DNA of 38,844 bases, from assembly GCA_903920065.1 (NCBI GenBank), contig CAIXKQ010000005.1, forward strand, positions 1 through 38,844, in the 5' to 3' direction. The first letter of the stretch is position 1. Each line of letters starts with the position of its first letter. This DNA comes from an uncultured Actinomycetes bacterium. Its GTDB lineage: Bacteria > Actinomycetota > Actinomycetes > Nanopelagicales > Nanopelagicaceae. The notes beneath the pieces are model-generated. The model was not told the DNA's origin, did not search any database, and was given only the letters and a program-made list of their open reading frames with translations. This document shows, in pieces, positions 21,507 to 28,598 of the stretch. The position numbers and the translations under genes were made by a program.

Positions 21507-22444
21507 CCCTTCCAGTAGATATGTCCACAACGCTGGCAAATGCGTGGTTTCCTACCCCGATTTTTACGGCAAGTGGTTGCGCTAGTAGTGGAAAAGAGTT
21601 ATCCCAGTTCTTTGCACTTAAAGATGTGGGAGCAATTGTTACTAAATCAGTAATGACAAAGCCACGTCATGGTCGACCAACTCCTCGTATGGCTGAGACA
21701 CCTTCGGGAATGCTTAATTCAATCGGTCTGCAAGGCCCAGGAATAGATGCCTTTCTCGCTAACGATCTACCGTGGCTGCTAGAACAAAAAGCACGAGTGG
21801 TTGTTTCGATTGCGGGGGAGACAATCGAGGAGTATTCAACGTTAGCTCGTAAAATTAGATCGGCTTCTGGGATTAGCGCGCTAGAGGTAAATATTTCCTG
21901 TCCGAACGTGGAAAATCGAGGTTTGGTCTTTGCCTGCGATCCCGATGCTTCAAGGCGTGTTATTGATGGAGTTCGAAAGACTATAGGCGGGGAACTTCCC
22001 ATCATTGCAAAGCTATCGCCTGATGTAACCAACCTGCCAGAGATTGCTAAAGGTGTCGTTGATGCTGGCGCCGATGTGCTGGCGCTAATAAATACGGTAC
22101 TTGGCATGGTGATAAACCTGGAAACGATGAAACCCCATTTAGGTGGTAAAACTGGCGGATTATCTGGACCAGCAATTAAGCCCATTGCAGTGCGAGCGAT
22201 CTATCAGGTTCATGCTGCGCTTCCGCAGGTTCCAATTTTAGGAATGGGCGGTGTTTCCTCTGGTCGCGATGCGCTCGAACTTATTCTGGCCGGAGCATCT
22301 GCGATCTCGGTAGGAACTGCCAGTTTCGGTAACCCTACTGCGCTGATCACCATTCAGAACGAACTTCGTGAACTATTGGCAGCACGTGGCTTTGCAACGC
22401 TGCAACAAGCAATTGGGTATGCACATCGAGAAGAGACACAATGA
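21503..22444 (+). CDS. pyrD: Dihydroorotate dehydrogenase, class 1B catalytic subunit
   Basis: FMN enzyme oxidising dihydroorotate to orotate. It has 313 residues from the ATG at 21503, chosen because GGAGG lies 7 bases upstream and ATGA overlaps the pyrK stop. An ATG at 21467 would add 12 unlikely residues. Class 1 is shown by the catalytic Cys133 in VNISCPNVENRG, where class 2 enzymes have Ser, and by soluble character without an N-terminal membrane helix. The FMN region is GMGGVSSGRDALELILAGASAISVGTA. The adjacent pyrK makes it class 1B (NAD+-linked). Many well-studied actinobacteria instead use the quinone-linked class 2 enzyme. Confidence 0.95.
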   Translation: MTLPVDMSTTLANAWFPTPIFTASGCASSGKELSQFFALKDVGAIVTKSVMTKPRHGRPTPRMAETPSGMLNSIGLQGPGIDAFLANDLPWLLEQKARVVVSIAGETIEEYSTLARKIRSASGISALEVNISCPNVENRGLVFACDPDASRRVIDGVRKTIGGELPIIAKLSPDVTNLPEIAKGVVDAGADVLALINTVLGMVINLETMKPHLGGKTGGLSGPAIKPIAVRAIYQVHAALPQVPILGMGGVSSGRDALELILAGASAISVGTASFGNPTALITIQNELRELLAARGFATLQQAIGYAHREETQ

Positions 22445-23142
22445 AAGCTCCGATAGTTCTTGCCGTTGATACACAGGATTTAGATACAGCTCAGCGCTGG
22501 ATCGAGGCGACCCAAGACTATGTAAGTGTCTACAAGTTAGGCCTCGAATTTTTCCTCACCTTTGGCCATGAGGGAGTCAGACGAATTAGAGGTGTGACCG
22601 ATTCTGACATTTTCCTCGATCTTAAACTTCACGACATCCCACACACAGTCGGAGCTGCGGCAACTGCAGTTCAGTCATTGAATCCAAGATTTCTCACCGT
22701 TCACGCATCAGGTGGCAGAGCGATGGTCACTGCGGCGGTGAAAGCGCTTCCAACTACCGATGTCACGGCGGTGACAATACTTACATCGCTATCCGAAGAG
22801 GATCTCTTCGAAATAGGATTTGCAAATAATGCACTTGAAAGTGCGGTAGCACTTGCAAAGATGTCTGTGGCAGCTGGTGCTCGCGCGATTGTGTGCTCGC
22901 CGCTGGAGATTGTTGCCATCCGATCTGCGTTAGGAAAAGATGTTCACATCATCACACCTGGAGTTCGTCCCGCTGCGGGTTCAGCAAGCGATGATCAGAA
23001 GCGAACAATGACTCCGCATGCAGCGATATCCGCCGGTGCTAGTTATGTGGTGATTGGACGCCCAATCACGCAAGCCTGGACGCAAGGCGCGCAGGCTATG
23101 ACTTCGGCTGCACGCGCAATCGCGCAAGATATTTTGCAGTAA
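22441..23142 (+). CDS. pyrF: Orotidine 5'-phosphate decarboxylase
   Basis: Last step to UMP. It has 233 residues, type 1 OMP decarboxylase. The catalytic motif is D60-L-K62-L-H-D65 in FLDLKLHDIPHTVGAAA. The phosphate-binding C-terminus has TPGVRPAAGSASDDQKRTMTP and YVVIGRPIT (about 180-215). It starts with a 4-base overlap with pyrD and has no overlap downstream. pyrE (orotate phosphoribosyltransferase), which must act just before it, is not in this operon. Confidence 0.96.
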   Translation: MKAPIVLAVDTQDLDTAQRWIEATQDYVSVYKLGLEFFLTFGHEGVRRIRGVTDSDIFLDLKLHDIPHTVGAAATAVQSLNPRFLTVHASGGRAMVTAAVKALPTTDVTAVTILTSLSEEDLFEIGFANNALESAVALAKMSVAAGARAIVCSPLEIVAIRSALGKDVHIITPGVRPAAGSASDDQKRTMTPHAAISAGASYVVIGRPITQAWTQGAQAMTSAARAIAQDILQ

Positions 23143-23151: not shown

Positions 23152-24024
23152 ATGGGTACGCCGCCACAATTAACTCCCGCGCAACGCGCCAGCGCCCTGG
23201 CGAAGGCAAAAGCTTCTAGACAAGAACGCTCCGAGGTGAAGGCTCGAATCAAAAGTGGTGAATTGACAATTGCTGACGTGATCTCCTTGGCCCAAAACAA
23301 TGAAGTCATTGCCAAGATGCGTGTTCTTGAAATGGTGGAATCGAAGAGCGGTGTGGGTAAAATTCGAGGTAAAGCGCTTCTAGAAAAACTTGGAATTTCG
23401 AGCACGCGTCGGATTCAAGGTTTAGGGCGCTACCAACGAGCGGCACTACTGAAGGAATTTGAATTGCCAACATCACTGCGCAGAGGAAAACTAATAGTTC
23501 TCTCTGGACCCGGGGGAGTAGGTAAAAGTACTGTTGCCAAGAAGTTACGTGAAGCATCTAATTTCGTGGTTATCGTATCTGCTACGACTCGTCCGGCAAG
23601 ATTCAATGAAGTTGCTGGCGTTGATTATCATTTCCTCAGCGAAATCGAATTTGACGCGGCAGTGAAAGCCAATGAGTTCCTAGAGTGGGCGCAATTTGCT
23701 GGAGCCCGATATGGAACCCCTCGACTACCCGTAGAAGAAGCCTTAAGCCAGGGTCATAGCGTCCTTCTCGAAATTGAGATCGAGGGCGCTAAGCAAGTCA
23801 AAGAAAAGATTCCTGAGTCAGTGCTGGTTTTCCTAGAGCCGCCTAGTTGGGAAGAATTGGTTTCGCGCCTAGAAGGTCGAGGCACAGATAGCGCAGAGCG
23901 CAGAGCTTCCCGACTTGCTTTAGCGCAAGAAGAGCTCGCTGCCGCCTCTTTCTTCGATAAAGTCCTGGTAAATGACGAGGTCGAGAAGGTGGTTGCAAGC
24001 CTGATAGAATTGGCGTCTGCCTAG
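23152..24024 (+). CDS. gmk: Fusion of actinobacterial integration host factor (mIHF) and guanylate kinase
   Basis: One uninterrupted 290-residue frame holds two proteins that are separate neighbours in mycobacteria and Streptomyces. Residues 1 to about 105 match mIHF, the essential nucleoid-associated DNA-binding protein: PPQLTPAQRASALAKAKASRQERSEVKARIKSG, then KIRGKALLEKLGISSTRRIQGLGRYQRAALLKEF with the H2TH-like core. Residues from about 112 are guanylate kinase, which phosphorylates GMP to GDP. Its P-loop is G119-PGGVGKS-T127, GMP-binding residues are in SATTRPAR and GVDYHF, and FLEWAQFAGARYGTP and RLEGRGTDS (lid) follow. The linker is only about six residues. The GMK P-loop reads GPGGVGKS where GPSGVGKS is usual. 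No internal stop or start with a Shine-Dalgarno separates the parts. Confidence 0.93.
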   Translation: MGTPPQLTPAQRASALAKAKASRQERSEVKARIKSGELTIADVISLAQNNEVIAKMRVLEMVESKSGVGKIRGKALLEKLGISSTRRIQGLGRYQRAALLKEFELPTSLRRGKLIVLSGPGGVGKSTVAKKLREASNFVVIVSATTRPARFNEVAGVDYHFLSEIEFDAAVKANEFLEWAQFAGARYGTPRLPVEEALSQGHSVLLEIEIEGAKQVKEKIPESVLVFLEPPSWEELVSRLEGRGTDSAERRASRLALAQEELAAASFFDKVLVNDEVEKVVASLIELASA

Positions 24025-24055: not shown

Positions 24056-24316
24056 ATGAGTGCACACATGGACGGAATTACGAATCCACCAATCGATGAG
24101 CTTTTAGATAAGGCTGGATCTAAGTACTCACTCGTTCTCTATGCTGCCAAGCGTGCACGTCAGATTAACGCTTACTATTCACAACTTGGTGAAGGTCTTC
24201 TTGAATATGTGGGTCCACTTGTGGACACTCACGTCCACGAGAAGCCACTCTCGATTGCACTTCGTGAAATTAACGAAGGTTTGCTAACAATCGAAAATCT
24301 TGAGCCAACTGCTTAA
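24056..24316 (+). CDS. rpoZ: RNA polymerase omega subunit
   Basis: Small subunit that helps assemble and stabilise the beta-prime subunit. It has 86 residues, at the short end for actinobacterial omega. The conserved core is [31 protein letters not shown] (about 11-41), including the KRARQIN motif, and [16 protein letters not shown] in the C-terminal part. The ATG has AAGGGG 5 bases upstream. The order gmk-rpoZ-coaBC-metK-priA is strongly conserved across bacteria and supports the call. Confidence 0.96.
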
Positions 24317-24332: not shown

Positions 24333-25517
24333 ATGCAAGGACATGGCCGCGAAGTAATTCTCGGTGTTGGTGGCGGAATAGCTGCCTATAAGTCCTGCGA
24401 TTTACTGCGTCGCCTGCAAGATATTGGTTTCCTCGTCACAGTCGTGCCCACTCCTTCGAGTTTGAACTTCGTAGGCGCAGCTACCTGGGAGGCTCTTTCA
24501 GGACGCGCAGTCACCACCGAAGTCTTTGAGAGCGTAGAAGAAGTTAGGCATGTTTCATTGGCAAAGAAGGCCGATTTCATCATCATCGCCCCAGCTACCG
24601 CCGATTTGATAGCAAGAATAGCCGCAGGTCGAGCCGATGATCTGCTGACAAATGTCATCTTGGCCGCCGATGTTCCTGTTCTAATTGTTCCTGCAATGCA
24701 TCCGAATATGTGGAGTGATCAAGCAACAACTGCAAATGTGCGGGTATTGCGAGAGCGTGGGTTTCACGTCTTAGACCCCGACATCGGAGCACTGACCAGC
24801 GGTGATGTGGGACAAGGAAGATTTCCAGATACCGTGAAGATTCTTCAGGCTTTCTCTGATCTAACTCAGGTGAAATCAGATTTCCTAGGAAAGCGGGTTT
24901 TGGTGAGTGCAGGTGGTACCCGCGAGCCAATAGATCCTATTCGTTTTATCGGAAACCAATCTTCTGGCAAACAAGGTTACGCAATAGCTTTGCAGGCACT
25001 GCGACGAGGAGCCAATGTTGTACTCGTATCGGCAAATGCTTCACTGCCAGATATTGAAGGTGTTCAGACTATTCATGTCAAGACCGCATCGGAAATGCAC
25101 GATGTATTGCATCAAGAATTTCCGAATTGTGATGTTCTAGTCATGGCGGCAGCGGTGGCAGATGCAAGGCCTGAAATTGTGCAGGATTCCAAGATTAAGA
25201 AGGATTCACTCACCACTATCAATCTGACTGAGAATGCAGATATTCTCAAGAGTCTTCATAGCCTCAAAGCGAAGCAAGTAGTCGTTGCCTTTGCCGCAGA
25301 GACGTCCCATGATGCAACTGCGGCCCAGAGCAAGATGTTGGCTAAAGGCGCCGATATTCTCTATCTCAACGATGTTTCTGGGGGAGATATCTTTAATAGC
25401 GAGACGACTTTTGGCGAGATTTTCACTCGCGCAGGTACCAGTTATAAAGTGGCCAAGACCACCAAAGACACGCTTGCCCAAGAACTACTCGACCACGCCC
25501 TCCATCAGTTAGGTTAA
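24333..25517 (+). CDS. coaBC: Bifunctional phosphopantothenoylcysteine synthetase/decarboxylase
   Basis: Catalyses two steps of coenzyme A synthesis. The N-terminal flavoprotein CoaC (about 1-185) has [18 protein letters not shown], catalytic His73 in VRHVSLAK, and the PAMHPNMW motif. The C-terminal CoaB domain (about 188-394) has [31 protein letters not shown] for CTP and pantothenate. The E. coli CoaC active-site Cys is replaced: the loop here reads TSGDVGQGR. As I recall, actinobacterial relatives also lack Cys at that position, so this need not mean loss of function. The start is ATG at 24333; I see neither a clear Shine-Dalgarno nor a correctly spaced -10. Confidence 0.95.
25510..25515 (+). 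promoter_or_regulatory. -10 hexamer TAGGTT, leaderless promoter of metK
   Basis: TAGGTT lies in the last codons of coaBC and ends 6 bases before the metK ATG at 25522. No Shine-Dalgarno precedes metK, which supports leaderless translation. Confidence 0.55.
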
Positions 25518-25521
25518 CCCA

Positions 25522-26712
25522 ATGTCAAAACGCCTATTCACCTCAGAATCAGTCACCGAAGGCCATCCCGATAAGATCGCAGATCAGATCTCTGATGCCA
25601 TTCTTGATTCACTGATAGCACAAGATCCATCAAGTCGAGTTGCCGTTGAAACGCTGATTACGACCGGTCAGGTTCACGTTGCTGGTGAAGTAACTACTAA
25701 TGGTTATGCCGATGTCATGGGAATCATTCGCGAAACTGTGATCGGTATTGGTTATGACTCTTCGGCTAAAGGTTTCGATGGTAATAGCTGTGGTGTTTCG
25801 ATTTCCATTGGTCAACAGTCACCGGATATCGCGCAAGGCGTGGATGACGCTTTTGAGCATCGCGTAGCATCTGCAGCAGACCCATTAGATCTACAGGGTG
25901 CTGGCGATCAAGGACTGATGTTCGGCTACGCATGTGATGACACCAAGGAACTTATGCCGCTACCCATTTGGCTTGCCCATGAATTGGCACAGCAGCTTTC
26001 GAAGGTGAGAAAGTCCGGAGCGCTTCCTTACTTGCGCCCTGACGGCAAAACACAAGTCACCATTGAATATGATGGAGACAAAGCTGTCGCACTCGACACT
26101 GTTGTCATCTCAAGCCAGCACGCGGAAGAGGTAGATGTTGCTGGGCAACTTACCTCTGAAATCATTGCTCAGGTAATCGATCCGGTTTTGGCTAAAATAG
26201 ATCTTCCACGCAAAGATATGAGAATCTTAATCAACCCAACAGGTCGCTTTGTTATTGGTGGACCGATGGGTGATGCTGGACTTACAGGGCGCAAAATTAT
26301 TGTTGATACCTATGGCGGAATGGCTCGCCATGGTGGTGGCGCATTTTCTGGAAAAGACCCATCGAAGGTGGATCGTTCTGCCGCCTATGCGATGCGTTGG
26401 GTTGCTAAGAATGTGGTGGCAGCTGGTTTAGCTCGCCGCTGTGAGGTTCAAGTTGCCTACGCAATCGGAAAAGCTCAGCCAGTTGGAGTTTTTGTGGAGA
26501 CCTTTGGAACCGAGACGGTTCCGGTTCAGAAGATTCAAGCGGCTGTGACATCCGTATTTGATTTGCGTCCGGCTGCAATCATTCGCGACTTGAATCTCAA
26601 GCGCCCTATCTATTCTCAGACTGCTGCATACGGTCACTTCGGTCGCGAGCTTCCTAATTTCACATGGGAAGTAACTAATCGAGTATCCGAACTGCAGGCA
26701 GCTGTTAAATAG
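25522..26712 (+). CDS. metK: S-adenosylmethionine synthetase
   Basis: Makes S-adenosylmethionine from ATP and methionine. It has 396 residues, the normal length. Signatures are [20 protein letters not shown] (9-28), [13 protein letters not shown] (about 126-138) and the P-loop-like [19 protein letters not shown] (about 271-289), followed by [17 protein letters not shown]. The N-terminus [17 protein letters not shown] is standard, so the ATG is secure. It lies 4 bases after coaBC. Confidence 0.98.
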
Positions 26713-26726
26713 GTTACCTGCACACC

Positions 26727-28598
26727 GTGGCACTTACGAGGCCACTACGTCTTAAGCGTGAGCTAGTTCAATCTGCGCCTGAGGTAAGTACAACTGAAAA
26801 ACCTGTCGCCCGTGTCTGGGTAGACAGTGGTGTCTTTCATTTAGATGAAAGTTATGACTATTTAGTTCCCGATAACCTCGATCCACACGTATCCGTGGGT
26901 GTTCGAGTTCAAGTTCCATTTAACGGGCGAGAGTGTGAAGCACTCGTGCTAGAACGAATAGCTGTGACATCAGGTAGAAAACTCAAAAGCATCACTAAAG
27001 TGATTTCCCGCGTTCCGCTGGCTTCGAAGCGTTCCCTTGATTTGATAGCACTCGTTGCAACCAGGTGGGCTTGTCATCCATATGACGTCATTCGCTCTGC
27101 AATTCCGCCTCGCGTTGCCAGTGTTGAGAAAAAGCAGTGGAGTGATAAGACCGCTCATGCACCAAGTCAGTCATCAGTTCGCCAATACCGGCAACTACCG
27201 CCATATCGGGATTCCTTTCAAGTGTTGTCTGATCACGTCAATGGCCTTAGCGCCAATGGTTCAATCTTGGTGCTGGTGCCAGATAAGAGATCCGTACTTA
27301 GGCTGATCAAGTATCTTCCCAAGGCGCTCGTTCTGGATTCAGATCTTCCTCGAAGTGAGCGATATGAGAATTTTCTGCGTGCCAGAACAACTTCGGCTCA
27401 GGTCATTATCGGAACCAGAAGCGCCATTTTTGTCGATAGTCCAGATTTAGCATCTATCGTCATCTTTAATGAATCATCGGAGCAGTACTTCGAAATTCGA
27501 TCCCCGGGATGGAATGCACGTGATATCGCAGTTCTTCGAGCACGTACTGAAAATATTCCGATTTACTGTGTGGGTTACAGCCCCAGTGCCGAGGTAGCCC
27601 GACTAATCGATATTGGCTGGTTTGATTTCAAGAGCGCGAAGGAGAAAGTTCGAGTTGATACTTTTCAGCAGGAATTTTCCGAGTTACTACCTGGAAAGAT
27701 CATCGGCGAGCTTCGCCAATTAATAAAACAGGGACCAATTCTCTTTATAGCGCCAAGAAAGGGATATTCGCAATCAATTAGTTGCAATAAGTGTCGAAAT
27801 ATCTCAATCTGTTCATGTGGCGGTCGACTAGAAAAGAAGGGGGTCACGACTGCAATTTCCTGTTCGCTCTGTGCGCATGTCTATTCAGAGTGGGCTTGCC
27901 AATATTGCGCAGGAGTAATTCCGTTCCTTCTTAATCGTGGAAGTGAACGATTCGCCCAAGAGATCGGAGTTGCGCTGCCAGGTGTGTCAATCACACTCAG
28001 TGAAGCTGACAAAAATGTTGAAGACTTTCAGGTGAGTTCCGGAATCGTCATTGCCACACCCGGTTCTGCTCCTATGTCAGTTAAGGGCTATGCCGCGGTG
28101 GTGATTCTTAATGGCGAGAAGTTACTCAACCAATCAGATCTCAGAGCACAAGAGCGAGCTCGGGAAATCTTCTTTACTCACGCTGCACTCTTAAATCCTT
28201 CTGGTTCGGCTCTTTTAGTCATCAATCACGCTAATCCAATAGTGGGTGCACTTGCTTCATGGAAGCCATCTCTGATTTCACGTCGAGAATTGGCTGAGCG
28301 CATCGAAGCTTCACTGCCTCCTTTCGTGAGGTCAATCTCACTTGATATTGATAGCGCCGAATCGGCCACCATGGTCAGAGCCTTAAATAAGTCGCGCGAT
28401 GAAGGCAGGCTTCCGGCGTCTACGAGAATTCTTGGACCATCAATTCTGAACACCTCTACACATCGGATTCTCTTACTTGCTCCACTTGAAGACGGTGAGG
28501 CGCTAGTTCTACTTATCCATGAGTTTCAGCGAAGACGCAGTGCAACCAGGAAGAAGTTGGCAACGCTTCGGATTGATCCATATTCGCTCTCGCGATAG
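26727..28598 (+). CDS. priA: PriA-like primosomal protein N', helicase motifs degenerate
   Basis: Replication-restart protein in most bacteria. This 623-residue copy keeps the N-terminal 3' DNA-end binding domain (about 28-125: VARVWVDSGVFHLDESYDYLVPD and GVRVQVPFNGRECEALV). It has lost ATPase motifs: no Walker A GxTGSGKT is present, only GSILVLVPDKRS, and the DEEH box position reads IVIFNESSEQYFE. The zinc region retains eight cysteines (C353, C356, C362, C364, C379, C382, C391, C394), but the second pair has one residue between instead of two. Loss of the helicase motifs is typical of actinobacterial PriA, so it is probably a DNA-binding or scaffold protein. The start is GTG at 26727 with no Shine-Dalgarno; a weak TTACCT precedes it by 7 bases. 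Confidence 0.88.
   Translation: MALTRPLRLKRELVQSAPEVSTTEKPVARVWVDSGVFHLDESYDYLVPDNLDPHVSVGVRVQVPFNGRECEALVLERIAVTSGRKLKSITKVISRVPLASKRSLDLIALVATRWACHPYDVIRSAIPPRVASVEKKQWSDKTAHAPSQSSVRQYRQLPPYRDSFQVLSDHVNGLSANGSILVLVPDKRSVLRLIKYLPKALVLDSDLPRSERYENFLRARTTSAQVIIGTRSAIFVDSPDLASIVIFNESSEQYFEIRSPGWNARDIAVLRARTENIPIYCVGYSPSAEVARLIDIGWFDFKSAKEKVRVDTFQQEFSELLPGKIIGELRQLIKQGPILFIAPRKGYSQSISCNKCRNISICSCGGRLEKKGVTTAISCSLCAHVYSEWACQYCAGVIPFLLNRGSERFAQEIGVALPGVSITLSEADKNVEDFQVSSGIVIATPGSAPMSVKGYAAVVILNGEKLLNQSDLRAQERAREIFFTHAALLNPSGSALLVINHANPIVGALASWKPSLISRRELAERIEASLPPFVRSISLDIDSAESATMVRALNKSRDEGRLPASTRILGPSILNTSTHRILLLAPLEDGEALVLLIHEFQRRRSATRKKLATLRIDPYSLSR

Follow-up and report, generated by a model that had tools for sequence, protein, structure and literature searches.

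The locus studied here raises the question of whether a nucleoid protein and an enzyme of guanine nucleotide metabolism are made as one polypeptide in Nanopelagicaceae, and of what such an arrangement would do for the cell. The window, the whole stretch of 38,844 nucleotides that was analyzed, contains one open frame of 290 aa (23152..24024, + strand, stop codon within these coordinates) whose translation has no internal stop. An actinobacterial IHF domain of the H2TH type (mIHF; residues 5-103, 23164..23460, +) is followed in this frame by a domain of guanylate kinase, an essential enzyme (GMK; residues 112-288, 23485..24015, +). The former was recognized by the NCBIfam profile NF041260 (actino_IHF; 114.2 bits against a curated cut-off of 60 bits, profile positions 3-101 of 102) and by PF22525 (residues 33-103, 84.5 bits), the latter by the equivalog profile TIGR03263 (guanyl_kin; 209.4 bits, cut-off 160.45 bits). 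Both halves therefore pass curated cut-offs as complete domains, confirming the preliminary description, which had read the frame as a full mIHF and a full guanylate kinase in 290 residues. Sequence matches in the PDB were to sIHF SCO1480 (4itq, 6bek; residues 5-104) and mIHF (6tob; residues 4-103) for the first half, and to many GMKs, including the M. tuberculosis enzyme (1znw; residues 111-287), for the second. The P-loop GPGGVGKST (residues 119-127, 23506..23532, +) has its G, P, V, G and K invariant across the fused proteins, and the GMP-binding motif S-x-T-T-R-x-x-R is kept in them (S143-A-T-T-R147-P-A-R150 in the window), so that by its sequence the GMK half would be an ordinary GMP kinase. 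Full domain, P-loop and GMP-binding motif are shared with bacterial GMKs (TIGR03263; M. tuberculosis Rv1389), which carry a short N-terminus in place of the predicted DNA-binding domain. The two domains are closely joined, as had been proposed, by a linker of about eight residues (104-111, 23461..23484, +) and not of about six.

Loss of a stop codon or a frameshift through sequencing or assembly error could create such a frame, and the window does come from a draft assembly of 191 contigs. However, the same intact frame recurs in dozens of assemblies made independently of one another, some of them single-contig genomes. All same-genus genomes with a full-length match were stop-free at 60-93% identity, among them the single-contig genomes G352-G365; a read error between the halves, the weak point named in the preliminary description, is thus excluded, and the probability of an artefact is negligible. 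In the window genome (85% complete) the mIHF search and the search with the fusion protein each returned one match, the fusion itself, and complete relatives also gave one match each. The fusion is the sole mIHF and the sole GMK match in these genomes; a second stand-alone mIHF, for which a check had been suggested, was not found in the 85% complete window assembly. With the families searched, the window genome yielded one HU match and no Lsr2 match, making the fusion one of two nucleoid proteins recognized there. A reduced nucleoid-protein set was seen across the Nanopelagicaceae genomes tested (one HU, no Lsr2 match), with two HU matches in G374, a genome with split genes.

How far the fusion is spread, a point raised in the preliminary description, was examined across the phylum, and it proved not to be confined to one genome. 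Most Nanopelagicaceae genera and all Microbacteriaceae genomes examined have the fused gene as their usual form, and a genus from a third family brings the number of lineages to at least three. Fused Nanopelagicaceae genera are g1, g220, g221, g222, g224, g227, g228, g230, g232 and g234; mihF and gmk are split in g223, g225, g226, g229, g231 and g233. The window's genus, g1, appears from sequence comparison to include Ca. Planktophila, whose fusion (L214) is 92% identical to one from g1. The named Microbacteriaceae loci were fused in 10 of 10 cases (Cryobacterium, Curtobacterium, Leucobacter, Microbacterium and others). Family f9, fused in the genomes among the matches listed, would correspond to Microbacteriaceae, since its proteins are 96% identical to that of Cryobacterium flavum (L227); two matches in one f9 genome (G685) represent a single fused gene split by contig ends. 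In the third family (f98), the genes are joined in genus g287, whereas its relatives keep them split or have no mIHF. All remaining named families in the locus survey were split, and in the rest of the phylum mihF and gmk lie side by side as separate genes, often with a single stop codon between them. The surveyed Mycobacterium and Streptomyces loci likewise carry separate, adjacent genes, as had been stated for these genera. Among about 180 genomes sampled outside the class Actinomycetes no fusion was found, with the proviso that very diverged fusions could be missed; 30 of them had both matches in one frame with at least one stop between. Both protein families are already known, and a search of a library holding few subscription journals found no earlier description of a mIHF-GMK fusion. 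That NF041260 is typed as 'equivalog_domain' suggests that longer proteins were known to its curators.

The fused gene lies within a largely conserved gene order, carB-pyrK-pyrD-pyrF-mihF-gmk-rpoZ-coaBC-metK-priA, represented in the window by pyrF immediately upstream (22441..23142, +), rpoZ immediately downstream (24056..24316, +) and the block of coaBC, metK and priA (24333..28598, +); the f9 loci gave no detectable pyrK, pyrD or pyrF matches. Within 61 loci, mihF and gmk were fused in 29 of about 60 by frame and HMM checks and in 25 of 56 by a BLAST rule, compared with none of 400 other neighboring pairs in the shared operon. General operon compaction as the sole cause was rejected on this count. 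The suggestion in the preliminary description that the fusion is a by-product of genome compaction is accordingly weakened as a full explanation, also because Microbacteriaceae genomes measure 2.8-4.3 Mb. Where Nanopelagicaceae carry the genes split, the start of gmk abuts or overlaps the end of mihF (CTGATG at the junction in G424, an in-frame TAG right before ATG in G468), and a small mutation would thus be enough for joining.

Mapped onto a tree of six concatenated neighboring proteins, the fused state requires at least five changes, and one origin for all fusions is therefore unsupported. The minimum within Nanopelagicaceae is three, which may represent a single gain followed by two re-splits, or else several gains, the two being indistinguishable on this tree. 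A single fused clade within this family was rejected by the AU test (p-AU 0.0098), a result that is less secure because one row (G472) is long and 41% filled, the tree was a quick one and the group was chosen from the data. On the species tree, the Microbacteriaceae fusion probably has a separate origin. It has the same domain order in one frame as the fusion in the window, but a different linker and a more diverged mIHF half.

Purifying selection, as estimated from the sequences, is acting on both domains. By a simple counting method, with some dS values saturated, dN/dS in close Nanopelagicaceae pairs was mostly 0.03-0.1 for mIHF and 0.015-0.06 for GMK, and in two Microbacteriaceae pairs 0.18-0.28 and 0.12-0.16, respectively. 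Of the two halves, mIHF diverges more quickly. Its mean identity to slow outgroups was 36.7% in fused f9 and 29.4% in fused g287, compared with 43.7% in split f98, while that of GMK changed little (56-60%). The trend toward divergence in fused proteins is not strict, for in Nanopelagicaceae the split g225 mIHF is as diverged as that of the fused genera. A particular difference concerns codon 89 (23416..23418, +), which encodes Gln in the window but Arg, preceding the GLG turn, in most stand-alone mIHFs. Arg was present at this position in 79 of 91 split mIHFs and in 0 of 49 fused ones, counts drawn from related and hence non-independent sequences. Split g225 also lacks this Arg, so the residue may have been lost before fusion or after an earlier fusion event. 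Given the absence of Arg 89 from all 49 fused sequences and the faster divergence of the mIHF half, DNA binding may be altered or lost.

These observations, together with the apparent complete loss of mIHF in some Actinomycetes, would fit a protein whose mIHF half no longer does much at the nucleoid and is kept as a structural or oligomerizing extension of GMK. We regard this as unlikely, however, as the half is under purifying selection, is strongly basic (net charge +4 to +12), keeps R23, R26, G69, R87, G92 and Q95 nearly invariant and is predicted with an intact sIHF-like fold. Like the stand-alone proteins mIHF (Rv1388) and sIHF (SCO1480), the fusion has a complete H2TH domain scoring over the NF041260 cut-off, matches sIHF-DNA structures in its fold and occupies the same operon place before gmk; it differs in being joined in frame to GMK instead of forming a separate protein of 105-107 aa, and in lacking the usual Arg before the GLG turn. 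The mIHF half probably still binds DNA without sequence specificity, in a weaker or different manner than stand-alone mIHF.

AlphaFold predicted the window protein with a mean pLDDT of 95.3 and a pTM of 0.73, the linker region (residues 101-110) forming the lowest-confidence block at a pLDDT of about 74. A second, distant member from Microbacteriaceae gave the same two-domain picture (mean pLDDT 93, pTM 0.71) with a similar dip at the linker. In the window model the mIHF half matched the sIHF-DNA structures 6bek at residues 14-105 (Z 17.1, rmsd 1.2 over 92 aligned residues) and 4itq (Z 16.4, rmsd 1.0 over 90), whereas the GMK half matched GMKs at residues 111-290, including M. tuberculosis GMK 1s4q (Z 24.8). 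Across 109 distinct fused genes, with one aberrant row (L121) left out, linkers differed in length and sequence, the two domain matches lying mostly 8-10 residues apart (range 6-22). Two confidently modeled domains, a low overall pTM, which is the sole hint on domain orientation from these models, and variable linkers do not favor a fixed inter-domain interface.

A fused frame might nevertheless yield two products in the cell, through internal initiation near the linker or through cleavage. Consistent with initiation, the window has AAGGAA followed by an in-frame TTG at codon 105 (23452..23466, +), a possible internal start for GMK alone, and 15% of fused genes had an ATG or GTG with an SD-like sequence at the junction, compared with 6% elsewhere, an excess that may only mirror conserved KE codons. 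Against this, ATG or GTG codons as such were not enriched at the junction (43% compared with 51% elsewhere), leaving a conserved internal start unsupported, and the window's own signal is a TTG and is not conserved in the family. Production of two separate proteins thus appears quite unlikely.

The structural evidence also bears on a regulatory coupling of the halves, in which GMP, ATP or ppGpp on the GMK half, or GMK oligomerization, would alter DNA binding by the mIHF half and so link the nucleoid to guanine nucleotide supply. Such coupling would be in keeping with the recurrent fixation of the fusion in several lineages and for this operon pair only, and with how few other known nucleoid proteins the window's lineage retains (one HU, no Lsr2). 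GMK is a dimer, and in several phyla (p)ppGpp inhibits it to an extent tuned by the dimer interface (PMC6783271). The varying length and sequence of the linker, the models' lack of any sign of a fixed interface and the split genes of some Nanopelagicaceae genera all speak against it, and we judge coupling to be fairly improbable. A guanine-nucleotide-sensing nucleoid protein, whose DNA binding or bridging would change with GMP, ATP or (p)ppGpp occupancy or with dimerization of the GMK half, is very improbable; if true, chromosome packing in Microbacteriaceae and in bacteria of the Planktophila type would follow the supply of guanine nucleotides.

On balance, the locus probably encodes a bifunctional fusion, two working domains on a short tether that would be kept because the arrangement is tolerated or mildly useful, and not on account of a demonstrated regulatory switch. 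Stop-free full-length frames in the window's genus, in other Nanopelagicaceae genera, in Microbacteriaceae and in g287 support this reading. Neighbors of an ancestral pyrF-mihF-gmk-rpoZ block would have been joined into a genuine bifunctional protein, a step easily reached as mihF and gmk are adjacent and often in frame. Since the halves are predicted to fold independently on either side of a short flexible linker, the main consequences would be a tethering of GMK to the nucleoid and a copy number of mIHF to GMK fixed at one to one. mIHF bends and compacts DNA and is a homodimer in solution (PMC3724605); with both halves dimeric, the fusion could also bridge DNA. In M. tuberculosis mIHF is an essential and abundant protein (PMC6155035), which agrees poorly with a one-to-one tie to a housekeeping enzyme. 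Deletion of its gene there required gmk and rpoZ to be supplied as well because of polar effects (PMC6155035).

In every Microbacteriaceae genome examined, and in most genera of the Nanopelagicaceae, a family abundant in fresh water, a packing protein essential in M. tuberculosis is covalently attached to an enzyme of nucleotide metabolism. In these groups, genes resembling plain guanylate kinase hide the cell's only mIHF, which affects surveys of nucleoid proteins. The repeated fusion of one gene pair and the loss of a single Arg offer a natural experiment on which tasks mIHF has to perform. In some Actinomycetes mIHF appears to have been lost in spite of its essential role in M. tuberculosis: no mIHF match was obtained for L190 (G799), G606, G748, G333, G579, G619 and G657, and in L190 gmk lies directly after pyrF, where mihF would lie. 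Two surveyed records have questionable names. L254 is titled Rhodococcus sp. under a taxonomy reading Chroococcidiopsidaceae/Gloeocapsa, and L193, listed as Bifidobacterium breve, has a fusion of the kind seen in the window's genus, so that its name is probably wrong.
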